Assembly (NCBI GenBank): GCA_019096065.1
Contig: JAGUCH010000006.1
Coordinates: forward strand, 5,910,001 to 5,974,000
DNA from: Paracyclopina nana
Taxonomy: Eukaryota > Arthropoda > Copepoda > Cyclopoida > Cyclopettidae
Direction of reading: 5' to 3'
DNA: 64,000 nt
Below, piece after piece: positions 52,959 to 62,248 of this stretch; positions within the stretch are counted from its first letter, which is position 1, and every line of letters begins with the position of its first letter. Position numbers and translations under genes: made by a program. The notes beneath the pieces were generated by a model, which searched no databases, was not told where the DNA came from, and saw only the letters and a list, made by a program, of their open reading frames with translations.

Positions 52959-54125
52959 TCAATCTTTATTAGCATAAGATTGCTTAATTTCATTCCATTT
53001 GGCATAGAGGTCCTTTTGTGGCAAGCTCCAGAAGTTGGACAAGTTCTTCCATCCAGAATGGGAAGTGATCAGTAGGTAGTCATTGGTAGGATCTTGCTGG
53101 TGAGAGTAAGCTCCCATGACAAGGCTTTGAGCATACCTAGCTGCCACACAAAGCCTTAAGACATCCATTTCAAGCTCTGGCAAAGGTCTGACAGTTTCAT
53201 AGCCAGCAATGACATGCCCACCAGCCTCATTTGGATCAATGGCAGTACATTTGACCATCATGTACATGATGGTGATGCCGAGCTCAAACACCAGAGGATT
53301 CTTTTGGCTGTCACCAAAATCAATGACGCTGAAGACCTCATATTGGCCTTGATCATCTTGCTTCATAAGGATGTTTTGCTCATTAAAGTCCCCATGTATC
53401 ACACCTTGCTCCAGCTTGTCCATACATTGCCCGAGAACTTTGGTCTCAAAAGCCTCAAAGATCTCCTTGCACATGTCCCTTTTCTGCTCATCCTGGACCG
53501 CATTGAGAAAATTCTTCACTTGGGGAATGGAGGATAGGAACCAAATGCTGTTTCTGCTTTCATAAGCTTCATGGTAGAAATTCTTCAATGATGAGTCCAT
53601 TTTGGCAATGAATTGGCCAGCCTCAAAAAAATGCTTGGGCAACCAAGGCTCAATGTCAAAAAAGATCTTGCCAGGAATGAACTTGAGCAGCCTGACCAAG
53701 TGCTTGTTGGCCTTTTTCAAGTCATTGTTTGCTGCCCAGTCATTTTGAGACTCTTTGGGACTTATTTCCTCATAGGACATCATTGATCCTTGTTTATTCA
53801 TGATTGGCACAGGCACAGCCAAATTGGCCTTGGCCATGTGCAAAATGAGGCCATTTTGGGCCTCAAAAAATCCAGGGTCTTTAGAGTCCAGGGAATTGGT
53901 GATCTTGAGCACATAGCCATCAGGACAAATGTCTTGGGGACATAAGTGAGGGTTGTCAATGTCAGCATTTGGATCAACTGTGAAGAAGTAGTTCCTGTCA
54001 TCATAAGAGTTGAACTCTTTGACATTTGTGGCCTTGAGGCCATAAATCTTGGCTGCCCAGGTCACAGCCATCTCCTTGTCCATTTGAGGCTTGATAACAG
54101 TACCAGGCTCAAGAACTTCAGCCAT
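52959..54125 (-). CDS. HYKK: Hydroxylysine kinase (aminoglycoside phosphotransferase family)
   Basis: A single-exon frame of 388 residues from MAEVLEPGTVIKP, close to the human enzyme in length. It has the APH-type catalytic loop VIHGDFNEQNIL and the metal-binding VIDFGDSQKN, followed by the FELGITIMYMM helix typical of HYKK. The enzyme uses GTP to phosphorylate 5-hydroxylysine from collagen breakdown. The frame also runs upstream to an ATG at 54197, but the extra 24 residues are not family-like. The stop codon overlaps an AATAAA (AAT AAA GAT TGA). This gives a very short 3' end before the DUF3472 gene. Confidence 0.92.
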   Translation of the reverse strand: MAEVLEPGTVIKPQMDKEMAVTWAAKIYGLKATNVKEFNSYDDRNYFFTVDPNADIDNPHLCPQDICPDGYVLKITNSLDSKDPGFFEAQNGLILHMAKANLAVPVPIMNKQGSMMSYEEISPKESQNDWAANNDLKKANKHLVRLLKFIPGKIFFDIEPWLPKHFFEAGQFIAKMDSSLKNFYHEAYESRNSIWFLSSIPQVKNFLNAVQDEQKRDMCKEIFEAFETKVLGQCMDKLEQGVIHGDFNEQNILMKQDDQGQYEVFSVIDFGDSQKNPLVFELGITIMYMMVKCTAIDPNEAGGHVIAGYETVRPLPELEMDVLRLCVAARYAQSLVMGAYSHQQDPTNDYLLITSHSGWKNLSNFWSLPQKDLYAKWNEIKQSYANKD

Positions 54126-55713
54126 TTTGCCAACTTGTGCACAATGCTCCCCACAAAAGAGTTGAATGTTGATAAGAAGAAATGTAGTTCTACTCAATGT
54201 ACCTCTCTACCTAGCTGAAGATTTATCTATTATGGTAGATTGCGTGATTTCCCACTTAAATTGTTGAGATTATGTAGAAAATCTCAAATAATCACAAAGA
54301 GGGGTATTTTATTATATGTTGCGATACAATTAGATTATAATTGTAAATGGTATTTATTTGAGGAAATGGAGAGAAACTACCAATATTAGTACATTTTTAT
54401 ACGGTTTTTTTAGCCTAAAATGCTAACATTTTCCCATAAAGGCTGTGAAATTATCAAGACTCACTTCACCAGACACCTGCTTATGCAGTCTGTCCTTTAA
54501 TTTCAAGGCCACTACAGCAAAGTTATCGGAAATGCGTAAATTCTTGAAAGTTCAAGCTATGTTCATCTGCCCATAAAAAGCTTTAAGAATCATGATGCTT
54601 TGGCTTGATCACTTGAAGGATAAATAAATATGTAATGAGGCCATAGCTTCCCCAGCCAAGTTTGTTATCAGCTCAAGATACTTAAATTGTGCTTTACAGG
54701 GAAAGAATGCAGTACATCAAGATTTGGATTGCTTTCATTGATGATCATTTCAGATTTGAGAATTTCCACATTTCAAAAAACGAGGCCAACTTTTGAGGAT
54801 AAATCGTTTTAGATGTAGGCTGAGTGATGAAATTTGATCTTGATGCTTGCTTTTCTCACATTACATGCTTAGCCAGAATGCAAGTTGAAAGCATAGAAAG
54901 GTATGTTTAAAATGGACATTTCATTCTCTTGAGACAGATGCATTAAGTTATATGTGGCAAAATTCCAACTCATTTGAAAATTATAATTGTAACATTCTAA
55001 TTTTTGCTTCAACAAGAGCTAGAAAGGAGCATAAATACATGAGGAATTTGCCCTTTGGCTGTTCTTTGCCACTTCGTAATTTTCCTGTCTGCATTGCTTT
55101 TTACATAAGCGATGAAAGAGAAGCAAAAAATTAAATGAAAACATTCCGTAGTCAAGGAAAGCTCATGCAATGCTCATCAATGTGAGAGCTGAAAATCTTG
55201 ATGCCAAGTAAGTTTTTCCTTTGACGAGCAACTATATTATTTTGAAATGATAACAAATCTCACTGAAATTAATCGACTCTCATTATTTATTACTTTTTTC
55301 TAATTGGCTGTGTGCTTCGATAAATTGCAATGCGCAACCGAAATACAGGAGAAATAGTTAAATACAATGACTCATTCAAGCTATTCTTTGGCAAGAATTT
55401 GGGGAATTTGAGAGTAGTGTCTAATTAAGCCATGGCAAATATAGTGACAAATCAGCTATTTTTAGCCATTGACAAATATTTGGGGCTAGTCCAGCAATCC
55501 AAATCGATGAGACACTCGTCTTGGCCATGCTCCATAAGACAAGTACTACGCATGCTACTTCTTTTGCCTTCTAGAGCACGCACAAGCAGCTTTTTCACGA
55601 GCACTCGAAATAGGTTTAAAAGCGAATGCTTCACACCCCTCCTTCAATAATCTGTTGAAAGTCCTGAGTGAAACTAAGCGAAGTTTTGTCCACCTTCGAT
55701 ATTTATTTACAAA
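54126..55713. other. Divergent intergenic region between HYKK and the small-HSP fusion gene
   Basis: No gene is seen. It should hold both promoters. One AGATGAAC-type motif lies at 54562 and a member of the dispersed intronic repeat lies near 55200-55310. No perfect heat-shock element was found. The nearest is TTCTAGAGCACG at 55569. Confidence 0.5.
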
Positions 55714-58700
55714 ATGGCTGAAACAACGAAGAAAGCAGTGAATACCAGCATCAAGGACTCATTTTTTGATGACCCCTTCTTCAAGGTAAGAACCTAATTT
55801 GCCAAACTTTGACGACCATCAAATGTAATGTTCATCTATGTTGCACAGACAAATCCGGATGAAAAGTAGTTTTTGCCTTTGCCCAGCAATTAGATTTTCA
55901 AGAACTGAAAGCAAATGTAACTGAAATTAGTCGAGTCTCATTTCGTATTTTGGTAATGTCGCCTGGCTTGAAATACGTCAAGGATTTTTCACTACTTAAG
56001 AATAGATGAACAGCACATAAAACGAATGTGGCTCATTTTTGCAGGACTGGTGGAATGACTTTGATCTTCAAAGCTACAAGAAAACTTTTGACAGGCAAAT
56101 TTCAGAGACGCCTCGAAGGTCAATGTTAGACAGTTTTTTCGACCTCAAAATGGGCAGGGAGGCCACCATGGGGGGATCTTCATCAATGTCTTCATCAAGG
56201 CTCAAAAATGGAGTCTTCACCATCGAAGTGGACATCCAGGATTTCGACCCTGAAGACCTGGACATTGTGGTTGAGGGCAGCTTTCTCATCATCAAGGGAG
56301 AGCGTGAGGTCAAACGAGGTCAAAATGTATCCAGACGAGTCTTCAACCAGAGGTTCAATTTGCCCTCTGGGGTGGATGTGGAAAAGATCACCTCTGAGTA
56401 CAAGCTCAATGGAAAATTGGTAGTCTCAGCACCTCAAAAGGAGTCTTTGGAGGCCACTCCTGAGGATGGAGTAAAAACGACCTCAGCCTCTTCACATGAG
56501 GTGAAAAAGTTGGAGGACGGCACTGTGGTGGAGATGTCTTCTTCAAGGAAGACTTCTAGCTCCACAAGGGAAATGGCCATTCCAATCATGTTTGGGGATC
56601 ATTTGCAGCATACCAATAAATTGCAGGCCAAAAGCCCAAGGCCACGATTGATGCCTTTTGCTTTCCCAGAAATGCCTGATTTTCACACTCAAATGATGCC
56701 CAGCGCCAATGAAATGATGGCCAAAATGCAGGCTCAGATGCAAGCTCAAATGGAGGCTCAAATGAAGCAGTTGAATCAAATTCAAATGCCATCCATGCAG
56801 GGATTCATGGGACAAATGGGACAGCTGGGTCAAATGGGACAACTTGGACAAATGGGACAACTGGGCCAAATGGGGCAATTAGGTCAAATGGGACAACTAG
56901 GGCAAATGGGACAATTAGGTCAAATGGGACAGCTAGGGCAAATGGGACAACTGGGTCAAATGGGACAAACTGAGATATCTCAGCAGACTCAGCAGAGGAA
57001 AATGACAGCTACTGCCACAACTCAGCAGTCCCAAGAATTGGAGGATGAGGAGATTTTTGTCCCATTAAGGCATATTGGAAGAGTCCAAAAGAATGCACTA
57101 GCTGAGGCCACAGCCATGGCCAAGATGAAGGATGACCACTTTGAGCTGGTGATCAACATCCAAAAGTTCACTCCTGAAGAGGTCAAAGTCTTCGTTGAGG
57201 GCCAATCTGTACTTGTCTCTGCCAAGCACTGTACCAAAGAAGGCTTCACCACTGACACCTATGAGAACAAGTTCAACTTGCCTGATGATGTGGATGTGGC
57301 TCGATTGACCTCGGGCATCTCCAGAGATGGAGTCTTGATGATTCGAGTGCCAAGGAGGACTCCAGAGAGGATCATCCCGATCCAATACGATGCCAGGATC
57401 ACAGCAGTGAAGAAAGCCCTTCAACAGACTGTGGAGCACATTGAGACAGAAATGACTGCTGAAGAGGTGCAAGAAGACTTTGACAAGGCTCACATTGCTC
57501 CAATGACCATCGAGAAAGAAGAGGATGGAATCAAGGCAGCCTCAGCTGAGGTCATTGAGGCCATGACCATTGGAGCTGCTGAGGCTGCTGGCAGGGATGC
57601 CGGCGAGGCTGCAGGGGCCACATCTGGAGGCCAAGAGGCCTTGGTGGTGGCCTCTGAGGCCATCATGGAGGCTGTCACCAAAGTGGCTCAACAAGTTGGA
57701 TTTGAAATGGCTGGAGAGCTTGGAGTGAAAGCTGCTCTTGCTTCTGCGGTTGATGTGGGCAAAGAGGCTGGTCTTGCTTTGGCACAAAGACTTGGCAACT
57801 CAACGGGAGCTGAGGTTGGAAGAGTTGCTGCTGGCCAAGCAGCCTCTGTGGCAGCTGCTGAGAAATTAGCCAAGATGAACATGGCTGAGATCACTGAGGA
57901 GAAAGCTGCTGAGCTTCAAGCTCAGTTTATCGAACTTGGTAAATCAATTCTTTTTACCAGATGCTACTTTTTTGCAAACCAATTAATTTGAAGCAAATCA
58001 ATTTCAAATGAGATTTAGTTGGTATCAGACCAATTTAATTAAGTTCCTTTTATCGAACATTTTCTTGCTTTCTTAACGCACAAAATTATGGAGTACTTGC
58101 CGTTGGGCTGATATGCTGAAAATACTTATCGAGTAAAATACCATATTCCATAGTTTCACTTGAAAATAATGAAATTTTTTGGCTTTTTTGCAAAGATGGT
58201 GAATTGGAGGGAACATTCTTGCATAGATGTACAATATTGAACTTTTTTCTAGGCAAATCGATTGGTGCAACAACTGGTGCTGTGGCAGGATCAGAGGCTG
58301 CCAAAGGCCTCGATTTGGCTGCTGTGATCAAAGAGGCAGAAAATGCGACCAGAGAGGCTGCAGAGGGTGGAGCTCTCCTTGCCAAAGTTTTACTAGATGC
58401 TGCCAAAGACGAGGCCACCAATGTGGCCAAAGAGGTTGGTCATGCTCTTGGAAAGGCTGCAGGAGAGAAATCTGGATTGGAGGCTGCCATGAAGCAAGTT
58501 GTGGAGGCTGCCAAAAAATCTGCTTTTGAGGCTGCCTCTCTCGTGGTCAGCCCAGAGGCTGCCAAGCTTCTCAGTGAAGATATTGGTACCAAAGTTGGGC
58601 AAGAAGTTGCTGCCAAGGTTGGAAAGCAACTTGGTGGCGAGGCTGGTGGAGAGGCCGGTGAGGCTGCTGCCCTTGATGTATGCCTAGCTCTGGCCATAGC

Positions 58701-61416
58701 TGAGGCCAACAAGGAGAATCCCCTGGACATGGATGAGAAGAAAATGGAGGCTCTGAGGGCTCGTGTAAGGGCTGCCACTGAGGTTGCCATAAAAAATGAG
58801 GCCACTAAAGCTGGCCACGAGGCTGGTGCTACCATCAACCTTGGCTTGGCTATAGAAGAGGCCATTCAAAAGGCTACTGCAGCAGTGGAGGCCCAAGCCA
58901 ATGATGTGAAAGCCTTTGAAAGCATGAGTGCTGAGATTGCAGAGAATGCTGGCAAATTAGCCGGTGCTGAGGCTGGAAAGGCTGCTGGTGCCCTGGAGGG
59001 TGAAAAGGTGGCTTTGGAAGCTGTTTTGGCAGAGGCTATTGAGGCTGCCAAAGAGGCTGGAAAATTGGCTTTTGGTGAGGCTGGAGCCGCTGTGGCACAA
59101 GAGGCTGGCGAGGCTGCTGCCAGAGAGGTTGCCATTGCTCTTGGAAGATCCCTCGGAAGTGAGGCTGGTGAAAAGGCTGGTCGAGAGGCCGGTCAAGAGG
59201 CTGGCAAATCAGCTGGCATGGCCGAGGCCAAAAAGCACAATGCTGCAGCCTTGAATGAGGCCCAAATTGAAGAGGTCAAATCGAAGCTAATCGGCATTGG
59301 CACCAAACTGGGCCAAACTGAGGGTGAGAAGGCTGGCATTGAGGCTGCGAGGAAAATTGACCTCGCAGCAATTCGCAAGGCTGCAGTGGAGGCTGCTCAA
59401 AAGGCTGGGGCGTCTGCTGCCAACATGGCCAAGGCCAGTGAAGAGGCCTCAGCCGCCAAGGAAATGGAGAAGATCCTTGCTGAGCATGCTGAGCTCACTG
59501 GTGAAAAGGCCGGTGAAGAGGCCGCCTTGGAGGCCGCTTTGGCCTCTGCAGAGCAAGTCTACCTTGAAGACATCCTTAAGATTTGCGAGGAAGAAGGGCG
59601 CAAAAAAGGCCAAGAAATTTTTGGAGATTTTGGAGGCCAAGTTGGAGCTGATGCCGCAGTGGCCTTTGCCAAGCCAGTAGGCCTAGCAAAGGCCCAAGAG
59701 CTTGTGGCATCACATGCAAGAGAAATGGGTAAGCTGGAGGGTAGGAAGGCTGGCCTTGAAGCAAGCAAGGCCGAAGCTGGAAAACTTGATTGGGCCTCCA
59801 TGTCGAAGGACAAGATCACAGCCATGAGGTCGCTCTTTGGTGAGGCTGCCACCAAGGCGGCCAAAGAGGCTTGCCATAAGGCCAACATCGGCAAATTGGC
59901 CTTCAGCAAAGTGGATGCTGAGCTCATAAAGGCCGAAGTCCGCAAAGTGGCCTTGGCCTCTGCTGAGAAATATGCAGTGAAGGCCAGGGAGTTCCACAAG
60001 ATGGCGGTGAGGATAGCCGAAGAAGCTGGTGCCAAAACTGGATCATCTCTTGGTGAAGAGGTTGGCAGCGAAGAAGGTGAGGCTGCAGGAGGAGTCATTG
60101 GCGAAAAGGTTGGAAGAGAGGCCGGCCACAAGGCCGCCATTGACCTCATCACTGAAGAGGCGGCCAAAAAAGCTGGGGAAGCTGGCGCCAAGGCTGGCAG
60201 AAAATTCGGCCTCAAAGTTGGCCGCGAGGCTGGAGGCCAAGCTGGCCTTCAGTTTGGAGGCCAATATGGCAGAATTGAGGGTGGCAAAGCCGGAGCCGCT
60301 GAGGCCATGAAGGCCTTCAAAATCGGCATTTCTAAGGAAAGAGTGGCAGCCTTGAAGAAGCTGTTTTACGAGGCTGGTGAGGCCGCCGGAAAACATGTGG
60401 CCTTCAACCAGGCCAAAATGAAGGCCATAGAGGCCGCCGAAGAAGAGGCAGCGAGATTTGCTCAAGAGGAAGGTGCAAAAGCAGGTGCTGCCATTGCAAG
60501 AAAGCTGCGCGCAGATGAGGCCAAGAAATTAAAGGCCGAAGGTGAAAAGATCGGCAAGGAAAAGGGTGAACTCAGCGGCGAATCCGCAGGTGAGAAAGAA
60601 GGTGAAAAGGCCGCAGGTGATGAAGGTGAGCGCCTTGGAGGTGATGAAGGTGCGCGCGTTGGCCTTGACATCGCAGGTGAAGAAGGTGCTCGCATTGGCC
60701 GCGAAATAGGTGCTCAAATGGCGAGGCAAGCCTGCAGCAAAATTGGCAAGAGAATTGGAAAGCAAGTCGGCCGCGCGGCGGGAGCAAAGGCCGCAATCAA
60801 GGCCTGTTGTGAGGCCGTTGAAGAGGCCTTTAAAGACATATCACGAGAAAAGGTCACAGCTTTGCGGAAACTCTTCTCCGAGTTGGCCGAGCGGTCGGCC
60901 TCCGAGGCCGCAGTGCAAATTGCTCGCGTTGAGGCCGTAAAGGCCGTCCAGCAGATTGCGGTGGAAATGGCCGCAAAGGCTGCCAGGGAGAAGATTTTGG
61001 CCATGGCCTCCAAGGGTGAAATCAAGCTTTCTTCCTCGTGGAAGCCCACAGCCTTGATTGCTGTGATTGCAACCCGAAGTGACCTCAGTGACCTCGACAA
61101 GATCAAGTTGGCGGCCAAGGCCAAGATGGAGGGCAACCTTGGTGACATTTTGCCCAAAAAGTTCAAAAGCAGGTATGCCAATTTGGAGGATGATCCCACG
61201 CATGGAAAGCTCAAGTTCACCGCTGAGGAGAGCTCCAGAGTCGATGCCAGTGAAGATGTGGATCCCACCAAGAAATGGAAGACAGTGGTATTTTCTGATC
61301 TGCCAGACGAGAAGAAGAAGACAGAAAAGTCCAGTACCAAAGATAATGTCAACTCATTGCGGAAACGGTTTGAAACTTCCAACATGAAAAATAATGAGGC
61401 TTATGTTATCATGTAG
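55714..61416 (+). CDS. Giant small-heat-shock/LEA-like fusion protein with two alpha-crystallin domains
   Basis: Three exons: 55714-55785, 56045-57938 and 58253-61416, giving 1709 residues. Alpha-crystallin domain 1 spans about 76-155 and is followed by an I-P-I motif near 178. A Met/Gln-rich linker with 18 tripeptides (MGQ or LGQ) runs at about 279-332. Domain 2 spans about 383-470 with a second I-P-I motif (RIIPI). From about residue 520 to 1640 the sequence is almost purely Ala, Gly, Glu, Lys and Gln helix with G/A every fourth residue (GEKAGREAGQEAGKSAG), six anchors of the form K-x-x-A-L-x-x-L-F-x-E-A, and few aromatic residues. The tail has KWKTVVFSDLPDEKKK. The front half should act as an ATP-independent chaperone. 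The back half resembles LEA or glycine-zipper protein and may protect against desiccation, which is inference. Junction phases are 0 and 1 and keep the frame. Confidence 0.85.
56807..56968 (+). repeat. 18-bp coding minisatellite
   Basis: Nine in-frame copies of an 18-bp unit encode alternating MGQ and LGQ (54 residues) between the two alpha-crystallin domains. Third-position differences (CTG, CTT, TTA, CTA) show that the units are not all of recent origin. Confidence 0.9.
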
Positions 61417-61766
61417 AAAGCTCGTAGTGATATTGAGTAAAATTGCATGTCGCTATATATAAGTTGTGGAGGTGCATGCAGAATAAAGCAGTTAAAATAA
61501 AGAAAATTCTATGATAATCACAATTATCTAAGGCCATTTTCATGTATTTCCGCAAAAAAGATGAATTAGGCTTCCTCTATAAAGCATCGATACTAGTTGT
61601 GAATATGTGAATGCAATGTTTGCTTTGCTTGAATGGTCTGTAATTGGTATGATTTACATTTTACATTCGTAAGCTTTCAACAAGTATCGATGCCTATTCA
61701 AAGAAAGCCTAATTTGATGTACCATCTTCTGAGGCATATTTGAGGCATATTCATTTGCATTAGGAT
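61417..61766. other. 3' flank of the fusion gene
   Basis: It contains AATAAA signals near 61482 and 61496 that fit the end of the fusion gene transcript. No other gene is seen. Confidence 0.5.
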
Positions 61767-61996
61767 ATGATGACGTCATATCCAAAGAGAAGCTCGAGCT
61801 GCTCAAAGAAAGTGAAAGCATCGAGTCAAGTTGATCCTTGGTTCTCTCCAAGAAATGGATTACAGTGGTACTATCTGATCTGTCAGATGATAAAAAGATG
61901 GCAGAGCAGTGCAGTACAAATGAGAATGTCAAGTCATTGCGAAAATTATTTGAAATGTCCAACATGGCAAATAATGAGGATTATGTTCTGATATGA
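61767..61996 (+). pseudogene. Duplicated C-terminal tail of the small-HSP/LEA-like gene
   Basis: From about 61849 the sequence can be read as KWITVVLSDLSDDKK... ending NNEDYVLI and a stop, closely matching the last 47 or so residues of the fusion gene (KWKTVVFSDLPDEKK...). The protein-level match in one frame over that stretch is good. Upstream of it the frame is lost, with an in-frame TGA near 61831 and a shift. It may be a decayed tandem copy or an unused alternative terminal exon. Confidence 0.65.
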
Positions 61997-62248
61997 AAAG
62001 CTTGATGGAATATTGAGAAAAATTGCTTTCGACGTTTTTTTCATAGTACTTGCATAAAATGATAGATGCCAAATTATCTCAGAACCAACAACTATGCACA
62101 GTCTATGCTCATTCTCCCATTAATTAATGAGCTCACCAATAACATGTGTTATTGTTGACTAATCCAAATTCCTCATACTATTAGATATCTTATCAGTTTC
62201 AAGATAAAAATAATTACGTAGCTAATTTTGATTCTTCCTTCTGCCATC
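61997..62248. promoter_or_regulatory. Upstream region of the small secreted protein with GATA-type site
   Basis: The 14-bp word CTTATCAGTTTCAA at 62189-62202 is identical to 23108-23121 in the alpha-glucosidase promoter. It contains an initiator (TCAGTT) and a GATA site. No TATA box stands 30 bp upstream here. Confidence 0.5.

Follow-up and report, generated by a model that had tools for sequence, protein, structure and literature searches.

Introduction

Small heat shock proteins (sHSPs) are small proteins that assemble into oligomers, and the fly representative l(2)efl/CryAB has one alpha-crystallin domain (ACD) and no rod. Group 3 LEA proteins (PF02987, LEA_4) are rich in Ala, Glu, and Lys, helical, and repetitive, with 11-mer repeats. 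The size range of sHSPs is given as 12-43 kDa in the available part of one account (PMC10417760), a range exceeded by the protein described here, at about 180 kDa. Until a survey of annelids appeared, double-ACD sHSPs had been reported only from some flatworms; the accessible portion of that survey describes them as common in annelids and present in molluscs and phoronids, and as lacking from its nematode and arthropod outgroups (PMC9075518). The double-ACD sHSPs of earthworms, as outlined in the portion at hand of a second study, span 32-84 kDa, and one of them carries a THAP domain (PMC13226371).

Here, we describe a gene from a window of 64,000 nucleotides of the copepod Paracyclopina nana, lying on G000:C6 of the host genome (92 Mb in 10 contigs). 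Its product is likely a copepod double-ACD chaperone mounted on a glycine-zipper rod, with a function that we infer from its parts. A preliminary description of the locus had proposed a chaperone fused to a LEA-like protein; the Met/Gln-rich linker with its GQMGQL array, the super-repeat of about 177 aa, and the conserved C-terminal cap reported below are additions to that account.

Gene structure and homologues

The gene occupies three exons on the + strand (55714-61416). Exon 1 (55714..55785) contains the ATG at 55714 and the first 24 residues, up to the conserved FFDDPFFK, with a GT donor after 55785. Exon 2 (56045..57938), bounded by an AG acceptor and a GT donor and open throughout, encodes the N-terminal arm, ACD1, the linker, ACD2, and the start of the rod, and exon 3 (58253..61416) continues from an AG acceptor in an open frame through the remaining rod and the C-terminal cap to the stop codon at 61414-61416. 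Both introns (55786-56044 and 57939-58252) are of the GT..AG type, the spliced protein is 1709 aa long, and in-frame stops lie upstream of the ATG. A polyadenylation-like AATAAA, identified by sequence match only, is located at 61482..61487 (+ strand). Directly upstream of the gene, the minus strand carries a 415-aa frame (52959-54206) that resembles a hydroxylysine-kinase/aminoglycoside-phosphotransferase-type protein.

When 7988 candidates were scored against residues 60-600, 10 proteins matched (E 8.4e-113 to 9.9e-99). Seven of them are nearly full length at 1739-1850 aa (P0001, P0003, P0004, P0005, P0007, P0008, and P0009), and three end within the rod (P0002, 964 aa; P0006, 1144 aa; P0010, 997 aa). 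The contigs of the seven near-full-length homologues measure 5354-7676 bases; the six from JGI are barely longer than their coding sequences and are thus read as transcripts, and P0009, on the contig of 7676 bases, may be genomic. A profile search with the double-ACD part yielded 77 proteins of 7991 scored, and several of the ten inspected look like genomic exons continued into an intron. Centring the search on the tail gave nine proteins of 7995 scored, seven with HSP20 and two (P0088 and P0089) lacking it. Each of these searches scored about 8000 candidates, few of which bear organism names, and the fusion has so far been named only in copepods: an uncharacterized protein of Lepeophtheirus salmonis (P0002) and a "Protein lethal(2)essential for life-like, partial" of Caligus rogercresseyi (P0029, 922 aa). 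Both of these sea-louse proteins contain two ACDs, the linker motifs, and rod sequence, and both lack the cap. The last ~30 residues of P0002 depart from the family sequence and end prematurely, which probably reflects a faulty 3' end of the gene model.

The same fusion is found in other copepods, among the crustaceans in which the preliminary description had suggested looking for it, and the named homologues support a crustacean origin. That description had also considered the architecture undescribed. No literature account of it was found among the titles and abstract openings of the best-ranked papers, a scope outside which most subscription journals fall, and to that extent the view stands; an ortholog family nevertheless exists in the sequence databases, its members unnamed or named by domain only. 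The P. nana genome contains no paralogue of the full gene or of the rod. The non-self matches of a rod search in this genome were a partial copy at 61784-61990 (52.2 bits) and the gene's own exon 2 (25.6 bits); two further matches on C3 (25.6 and 24.1 bits) were set aside as compositional.

The double-ACD head and the long tail belong to one gene, and the fusion is real. The exon 1/2 junction (DPFFK followed by DWW) is intact in 9/10 homologues, P0010 having no sequence there, and the exon 2/3 junction aligns unbroken in 10/10; the seven near-full-length homologues run through both junctions to a common C-terminus, which establishes a single gene. A case can be made that prediction joined a neighbouring double-ACD sHSP gene to a gene for a helical protein, since read-through of intron 2 meets a stop at 57989-57991 (frame 56021..57991) and since P0088 and P0089 (627 and 638 aa) comprise the rod end and cap only, starting with Met. 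We regard such an artefact as exceedingly improbable, and it is ruled out as the main reading by the homologues that span both junctions unbroken and by the super-repeat, whose module U1 crosses intron 2. The first Met of P0088 and P0089 lies inside the rod, and P0001 has, by eye, a Met in the same surroundings; the two proteins are therefore taken as fragments with a called start (read as such rather than proven), and a tail-only product is possible. The three exons, open reading, and single polypeptide of the preliminary description are thus correct in their coordinates, and the full-span homologues contradict the two separate genes that it had named as the outcome that would overturn it.

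The double alpha-crystallin head and its linker

HSP20 (PF00011) was detected by hmmscan against Pfam with a whole-protein E of 8.5e-31, in two stretches over the cut-off. ACD1 (56207..56452, + strand; residues about 78-160) and ACD2 (57122..57382, + strand) correspond to HSP20 matches in the genome with E 6.3e-15 and E 1.2e-13, respectively, and ACD2 aligns to human alphaB-crystallin through its IPI. An AF2 model of the exon-2 protein (23 aligned sequences; mean pLDDT 60.9, pTM 0.27) places beta sandwiches at residues 57-131 and 357-437 of that protein, with block pLDDT mostly 69-86; the first of these is ACD1, at about 69-86. Foldseek with the head ranked alphaB-crystallin core domains first (E 3.4e-8), the two-ACD structure 2BOL appearing at rank 39 (E 2.4e-6). 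The HSP20 profile, the modelled sandwiches, and the Foldseek result agree on two complete alpha-crystallin domains, as had been claimed from the sequence alone.

The claim of one I-P-I motif per domain is likewise borne out, with different spacing in the two cases: the first motif (56579..56587, + strand), read in the sequence, is situated in the linker about 43 residues past ACD1, and the second (57374-57382) lies directly behind ACD2. Of 90 family sequences, many of them incomplete, 43 contain the form KE[MIV]xIPI or REMAIPI. Between ACD2 and its counterparts in 10 homologues, identity is 64-67%.

A tree of 21 ACDs, covering 7/11 aligned family sequences, six other P. nana matches, and human alphaB, separated the seven ACD1s from the seven ACD2s in distinct clades (support 0.995 and 0.999); the two domains had therefore diverged by the time of the common ancestor of the sequences compared. 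Arg120 of alphaB-crystallin is the dimer-interface arginine, common in metazoan sHSPs and not strictly defining. Among the 90 family sequences, many of them fragments, the equivalent position in ACD1 is Q in 28 and E in 10 of the 38 that have the motif, and in ACD2 it is Q in 59, N in 6, H in 2, R in 2, and E in 1 of the 70 that have it. In six translated ACDs, out of the 13 other HSP20 matches of the P. nana genome, R was present by eye in 5/6 and Q in 1/6. The replacement in both ACDs suggests altered domain contacts.

Other multi-ACD loci were observed in the same genome. A second such gene (L008:256-2182; G000:C8 about 1081017-1082943) has a 361-aa frame with three alpha-crystallin-like stretches by eye, the last of which was scored by the HSP20 search, and two more near-identical copies of this last stretch follow the frame. 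Elsewhere, three HSP20 matches are clustered within 1.5 kb (G000:C7:6102961-6104457), one of them with three in-frame stops.

The linker between the two ACDs is Met/Gln-rich and predicted by AF2 to be disordered. The alignment of its residues 161-375 takes up 381 columns and shows 9-16 runs of gaps in each sequence. The linker includes an 18-bp tandem array of 8.7 copies encoding GQMGQL repeats (56813..56968, + strand; TRF score 221), modelled at a block pLDDT of about 28-38. The array accounts for a Pfam Collagen match (PF01391; residues 277-332; above threshold at E 3.2e-7), which we judge from the sequence to be low complexity; a Gly-X-Y triple helix was rejected because the array is proline-free and the Collagen match is missing in five scanned family members.

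The predicted glycine-zipper rod and its super-repeat

The very long Ala/Gly/Glu/Lys tail of the preliminary description was recovered as roughly 1050 residues with a glycine periodicity far above that of shuffled sequences. The first part of this rod (57518..57938, + strand; residues 516-656) corresponds to the AF2 helix at 492-610 of the exon-2 model, and residues 560-656 share 51-58% identity with the 10 homologues. Over residues 560-1600, compared between P. nana and the seven near-full-length homologues (P0002, P0006, and P0010 being left out), identity to P. nana is 44-49% across 1041 columns, and the only gaps are three extra P. nana residues (761, 1197, and 1198) and a 78-residue skip in P0008. 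The near-fixed length of the rod, set against the 9-16 gap runs per sequence in the linker, points to selection on length. The skip, equivalent to residues 1386-1463 of the P. nana protein, is in frame, and over the remaining aligned rod P0008 is 100% identical (rounded) to P0007, as would result from alternative splicing or from a repeat collapsed in assembly.

No other residue type of the rod is as conserved as glycine: 90/118 glycines (76%) are invariant in the eight sequences, compared with 9/19 Phe, 84/254 Ala (33%), 41/142 Glu (29%), and 25/110 Lys (23%). The glycines recur with a period of 3.98 residues (power 36.4, the 95% level of shuffles being 8.9), G-x3-G pairs are 4.95 times as frequent as expected, and 53 invariant pairs are exactly four residues apart. 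Runs of glycine at an exact spacing of 4 reach 10, 9, and 7 in P. nana, and all seven homologues have one run of 12 and one of 10; the longest such run in 1000 shuffles of the P. nana tail averaged 3, with a maximum of 7. Charged residues share the glycine period (26.9 vs a shuffled level of 8.3), and Ala has a weak period of 4.04 (10.3 vs 8.8). Hydrophobic residues of the rod give no significant periodic peak (6.5 vs a shuffled 95% level of 8.0), and a classical coiled coil with its heptad (3.5) was accordingly rejected.

The exon-3 AF2 model (12 sequences; mean pLDDT 77.1, pTM 0.32) is 93% helix over residues 1-919 of the exon. The rod is thus predicted to be helical by a method that may draw long helices for sequences disordered in solution, and the pTM of 0.32 leaves its packing and overall shape unfixed by the model. 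Foldseek against the PDB gave no usable fold match for the rod model (best E 0.72, a weak negative given its pTM of 0.32), and the best hit of an exon 3 sequence search in the PDB had E 0.65.

A longer repeat is superimposed on this short period. Profile self-comparison of residues 536-1560 at offsets 60-499 peaked at offset 175 (mean score 0.169), followed by 183 (0.018) and 359 (-0.025); none of 900 block shuffles (300 each with blocks of 12, 20, and 28 residues) reached the offset-175 score, the best attaining -0.059. Anchor turns at residues 638, 815, 989, 1172, 1348, and 1518, spaced by 177, 174, 183, 176, and 170, delimit modules that all lie on the + strand. U1 (57884..58728; residues 638-814) is split by intron 2 and aligns to U2 at 4-176/2-173 (99.7%; offset 175). 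The next modules, defined by self-comparison and hhalign alike, are U2 (58729..59250; residues 815-988), U3 (59251..59799; residues 989-1171), U4 (59800..60327; residues 1172-1347), which holds spacing-4 runs of 9 and 10 glycines, and U5 (60328..60837; residues 1348-1517). All 10/10 pairs of U1-U5 match in local hhalign at 95.3-99.7%, starting no more than 8 residues from both module starts; these probabilities are uncorrected for the biased Ala/Gly/Glu/Lys composition, which can inflate them. A half module U0 precedes U1 and matches mainly over its second half. At the end of the rod, the truncated U6 (60838..61011; residues 1518-1575) is the last long helix in the model, and its similarity to U4 and U5 is confined to the first 25-36 residues. 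The AF2 helix breaks coincide with the anchor turns and are not uniform: U2 is the clearest module, its turn leading into a helix of 32 residues that a short break separates from another of 129, extra breaks occur in U1, U3, and U4, and U5 lies within a single 168-residue helix.

The C-terminal cap

Beyond the rod, homologue alignment defines a conserved cap (61012..61413, + strand) ending in SLRKRFETSNMKNNEAYVIM. Residues 1600-1709 are 52-60% identical to the seven near-full-length homologues, and the terminal NEAY[VI]I[ML] is found in 8/8 sequences that reach it, P0088 and P0089 ending alike. The cap contains no Pfam domain (hmmscan, all Pfam, E<=1) and is mostly coil in the AF2 model, at a pLDDT under 40. 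Its hydrophobic last and third-last residues make it a putative class II PDZ ligand. Further downstream, the 3' part of exon 3 is repeated incompletely in tandem (61839-62026), with 78.7% DNA identity over 188 bases that extend beyond the stop codon; in this copy the last 46 codons are open (63% protein identity), with a stop further upstream, and it may be either a relic or an alternative last exon.

Proposed role and alternative readings

Near-fixed length, invariant glycines, the four-residue period, the super-repeat, and the predicted helix together fit a structural rod rather than a disordered protectant. We therefore propose, with about even confidence, a tethered, structural sHSP of copepods composed of a double-ACD head, a flexible linker, a fixed-length glycine-zipper rod, and a C-terminal anchor. 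The two ACDs of the head, each with its I-P-I and connected by the long disordered Met/Gln linker, would bind partly unfolded clients or assemble through ACD contacts. The rod, in which a half module precedes five modules of some 177 residues and a shortened sixth one closes the series, would have a fixed length, and its stripe of glycine at every fourth residue may allow very close helix packing within a chain or, laterally, between chains; if so, the rod could act as a spacer or as a filament assembling sideways. Through the cap, the distal end of the rod would be attached to some other structure, the best candidates being cytoskeletal or sarcomeric. A bolder version, in which a new class of chaperone carries its alpha-crystallin head in a self-assembling, fixed-length glycine-zipper filament whose glycine stripe, continued over about 1000 soluble residues, gives a helix packing with no solved precedent in our fold search (a weak negative), is tentative, and we consider it unlikely.

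A role in assembly only, with the ACDs as crosslinking nodes that have lost chaperone activity and the rod as the functional part, for instance in muscle, cuticle-forming cells, or the eye, is possible if somewhat unlikely. The rod is indeed the longest and length-conserved part of the protein, and the Arg120-equivalent is lost from both ACDs yet is R in five of the six other translated ACDs of the genome; however, retention of the I-P-I motifs and the 64-67% identity of ACD2 to the 10 homologues are as expected if binding of clients or partners persists. We assign low probability to a stress chaperone that is soluble and unanchored, its tail serving as a solubility or spacing aid: the tail is charged and close to neutral (net -16 over 1041 residues) and the cap matches no Pfam domain, but a near-exact length, invariant glycines, and a C-terminus conserved to its last residues would be needless in a passive tail.

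The fusion with a LEA-like tail that the preliminary description proposed, taken here as a disordered, amphipathic segment shielding the clients of the ACD half from water loss or in diapause, seems equally improbable. In its favour, the tail is rich in Ala, Glu, Lys, and Gly and predicted helical, an exact heat-shock-element match is present at 54541-54553, 1.2 kb upstream, and tardigrade sHSPs can, according to the available part of one report, limit desiccation-induced aggregation (PMC9887055). Against it, hmmscan with all of Pfam at E<=1 returned only HSP20, Collagen, and ArsA_HSP20 and no LEA family; a LEA_4 profile search of the P. nana genome was empty but carries no weight, its control genomes being equally silent. 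The tail has a GRAVY of -0.17 and a calculated Uversky value on the folded side (H 0.481 vs a boundary of 0.419), its length is near-fixed, and its conservation is specific to glycine. On these grounds, LEA membership was rejected. The AF2 helix was not counted against it, because AF2 may model sequences of this kind as helical. Heat-shock elements with at most one mismatch number 22 in the window vs 29 expected; this count is not above chance, and they were set aside as a sign of heat induction. Sea lice, which carry the gene, live in water, so desiccation protection is unlikely as the core role, and the water-loss function is not supported.

Significance and comparison with known systems

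A conserved 180-kDa sHSP with a fixed-length rod would show an alpha-crystallin head within an architectural protein. With invariant glycines making up 90 of its 1041 residues, the rod offers a test case for helix packing. Copepods are an abundant group to which salmon parasites belong; since RNAi is in use in sea lice, these animals should lend themselves to localisation and knockdown. The gene also adds a double-ACD protein to the arthropods, from whose outgroup representatives such proteins are absent in the available portion of the annelid survey (PMC9075518).

Among described proteins, Tsp36 of Taenia saginata (PDB 2BOL) resembles the P. nana protein in having two tandem ACDs per chain (profile match E 1.5e-13), whereas its chain is 314 aa long vs 1709 aa. 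The double-ACD sHSPs of flatworms and annelids are about 32-84 kDa, with no rod described in the accessible parts of the two studies (PMC13226371; PMC9075518). As that survey's available portion reports, the upstream ACDs of annelids cluster apart from the downstream ones (PMC9075518), and the ACD1 and ACD2 clades of the P. nana family are likewise separate. Human alphaB-crystallin (HSPB5), aligned through IPI, is 38% identical to ACD2; it has one ACD, no rod, and Arg120, in contrast to the replaced equivalent of the P. nana family. The link to l(2)efl derives from the Caligus protein name only. Group 3 LEA proteins differ from the P. nana tail, which gives no match to their profile and is instead built on a four-residue glycine stripe and 177-aa modules of fixed overall length.
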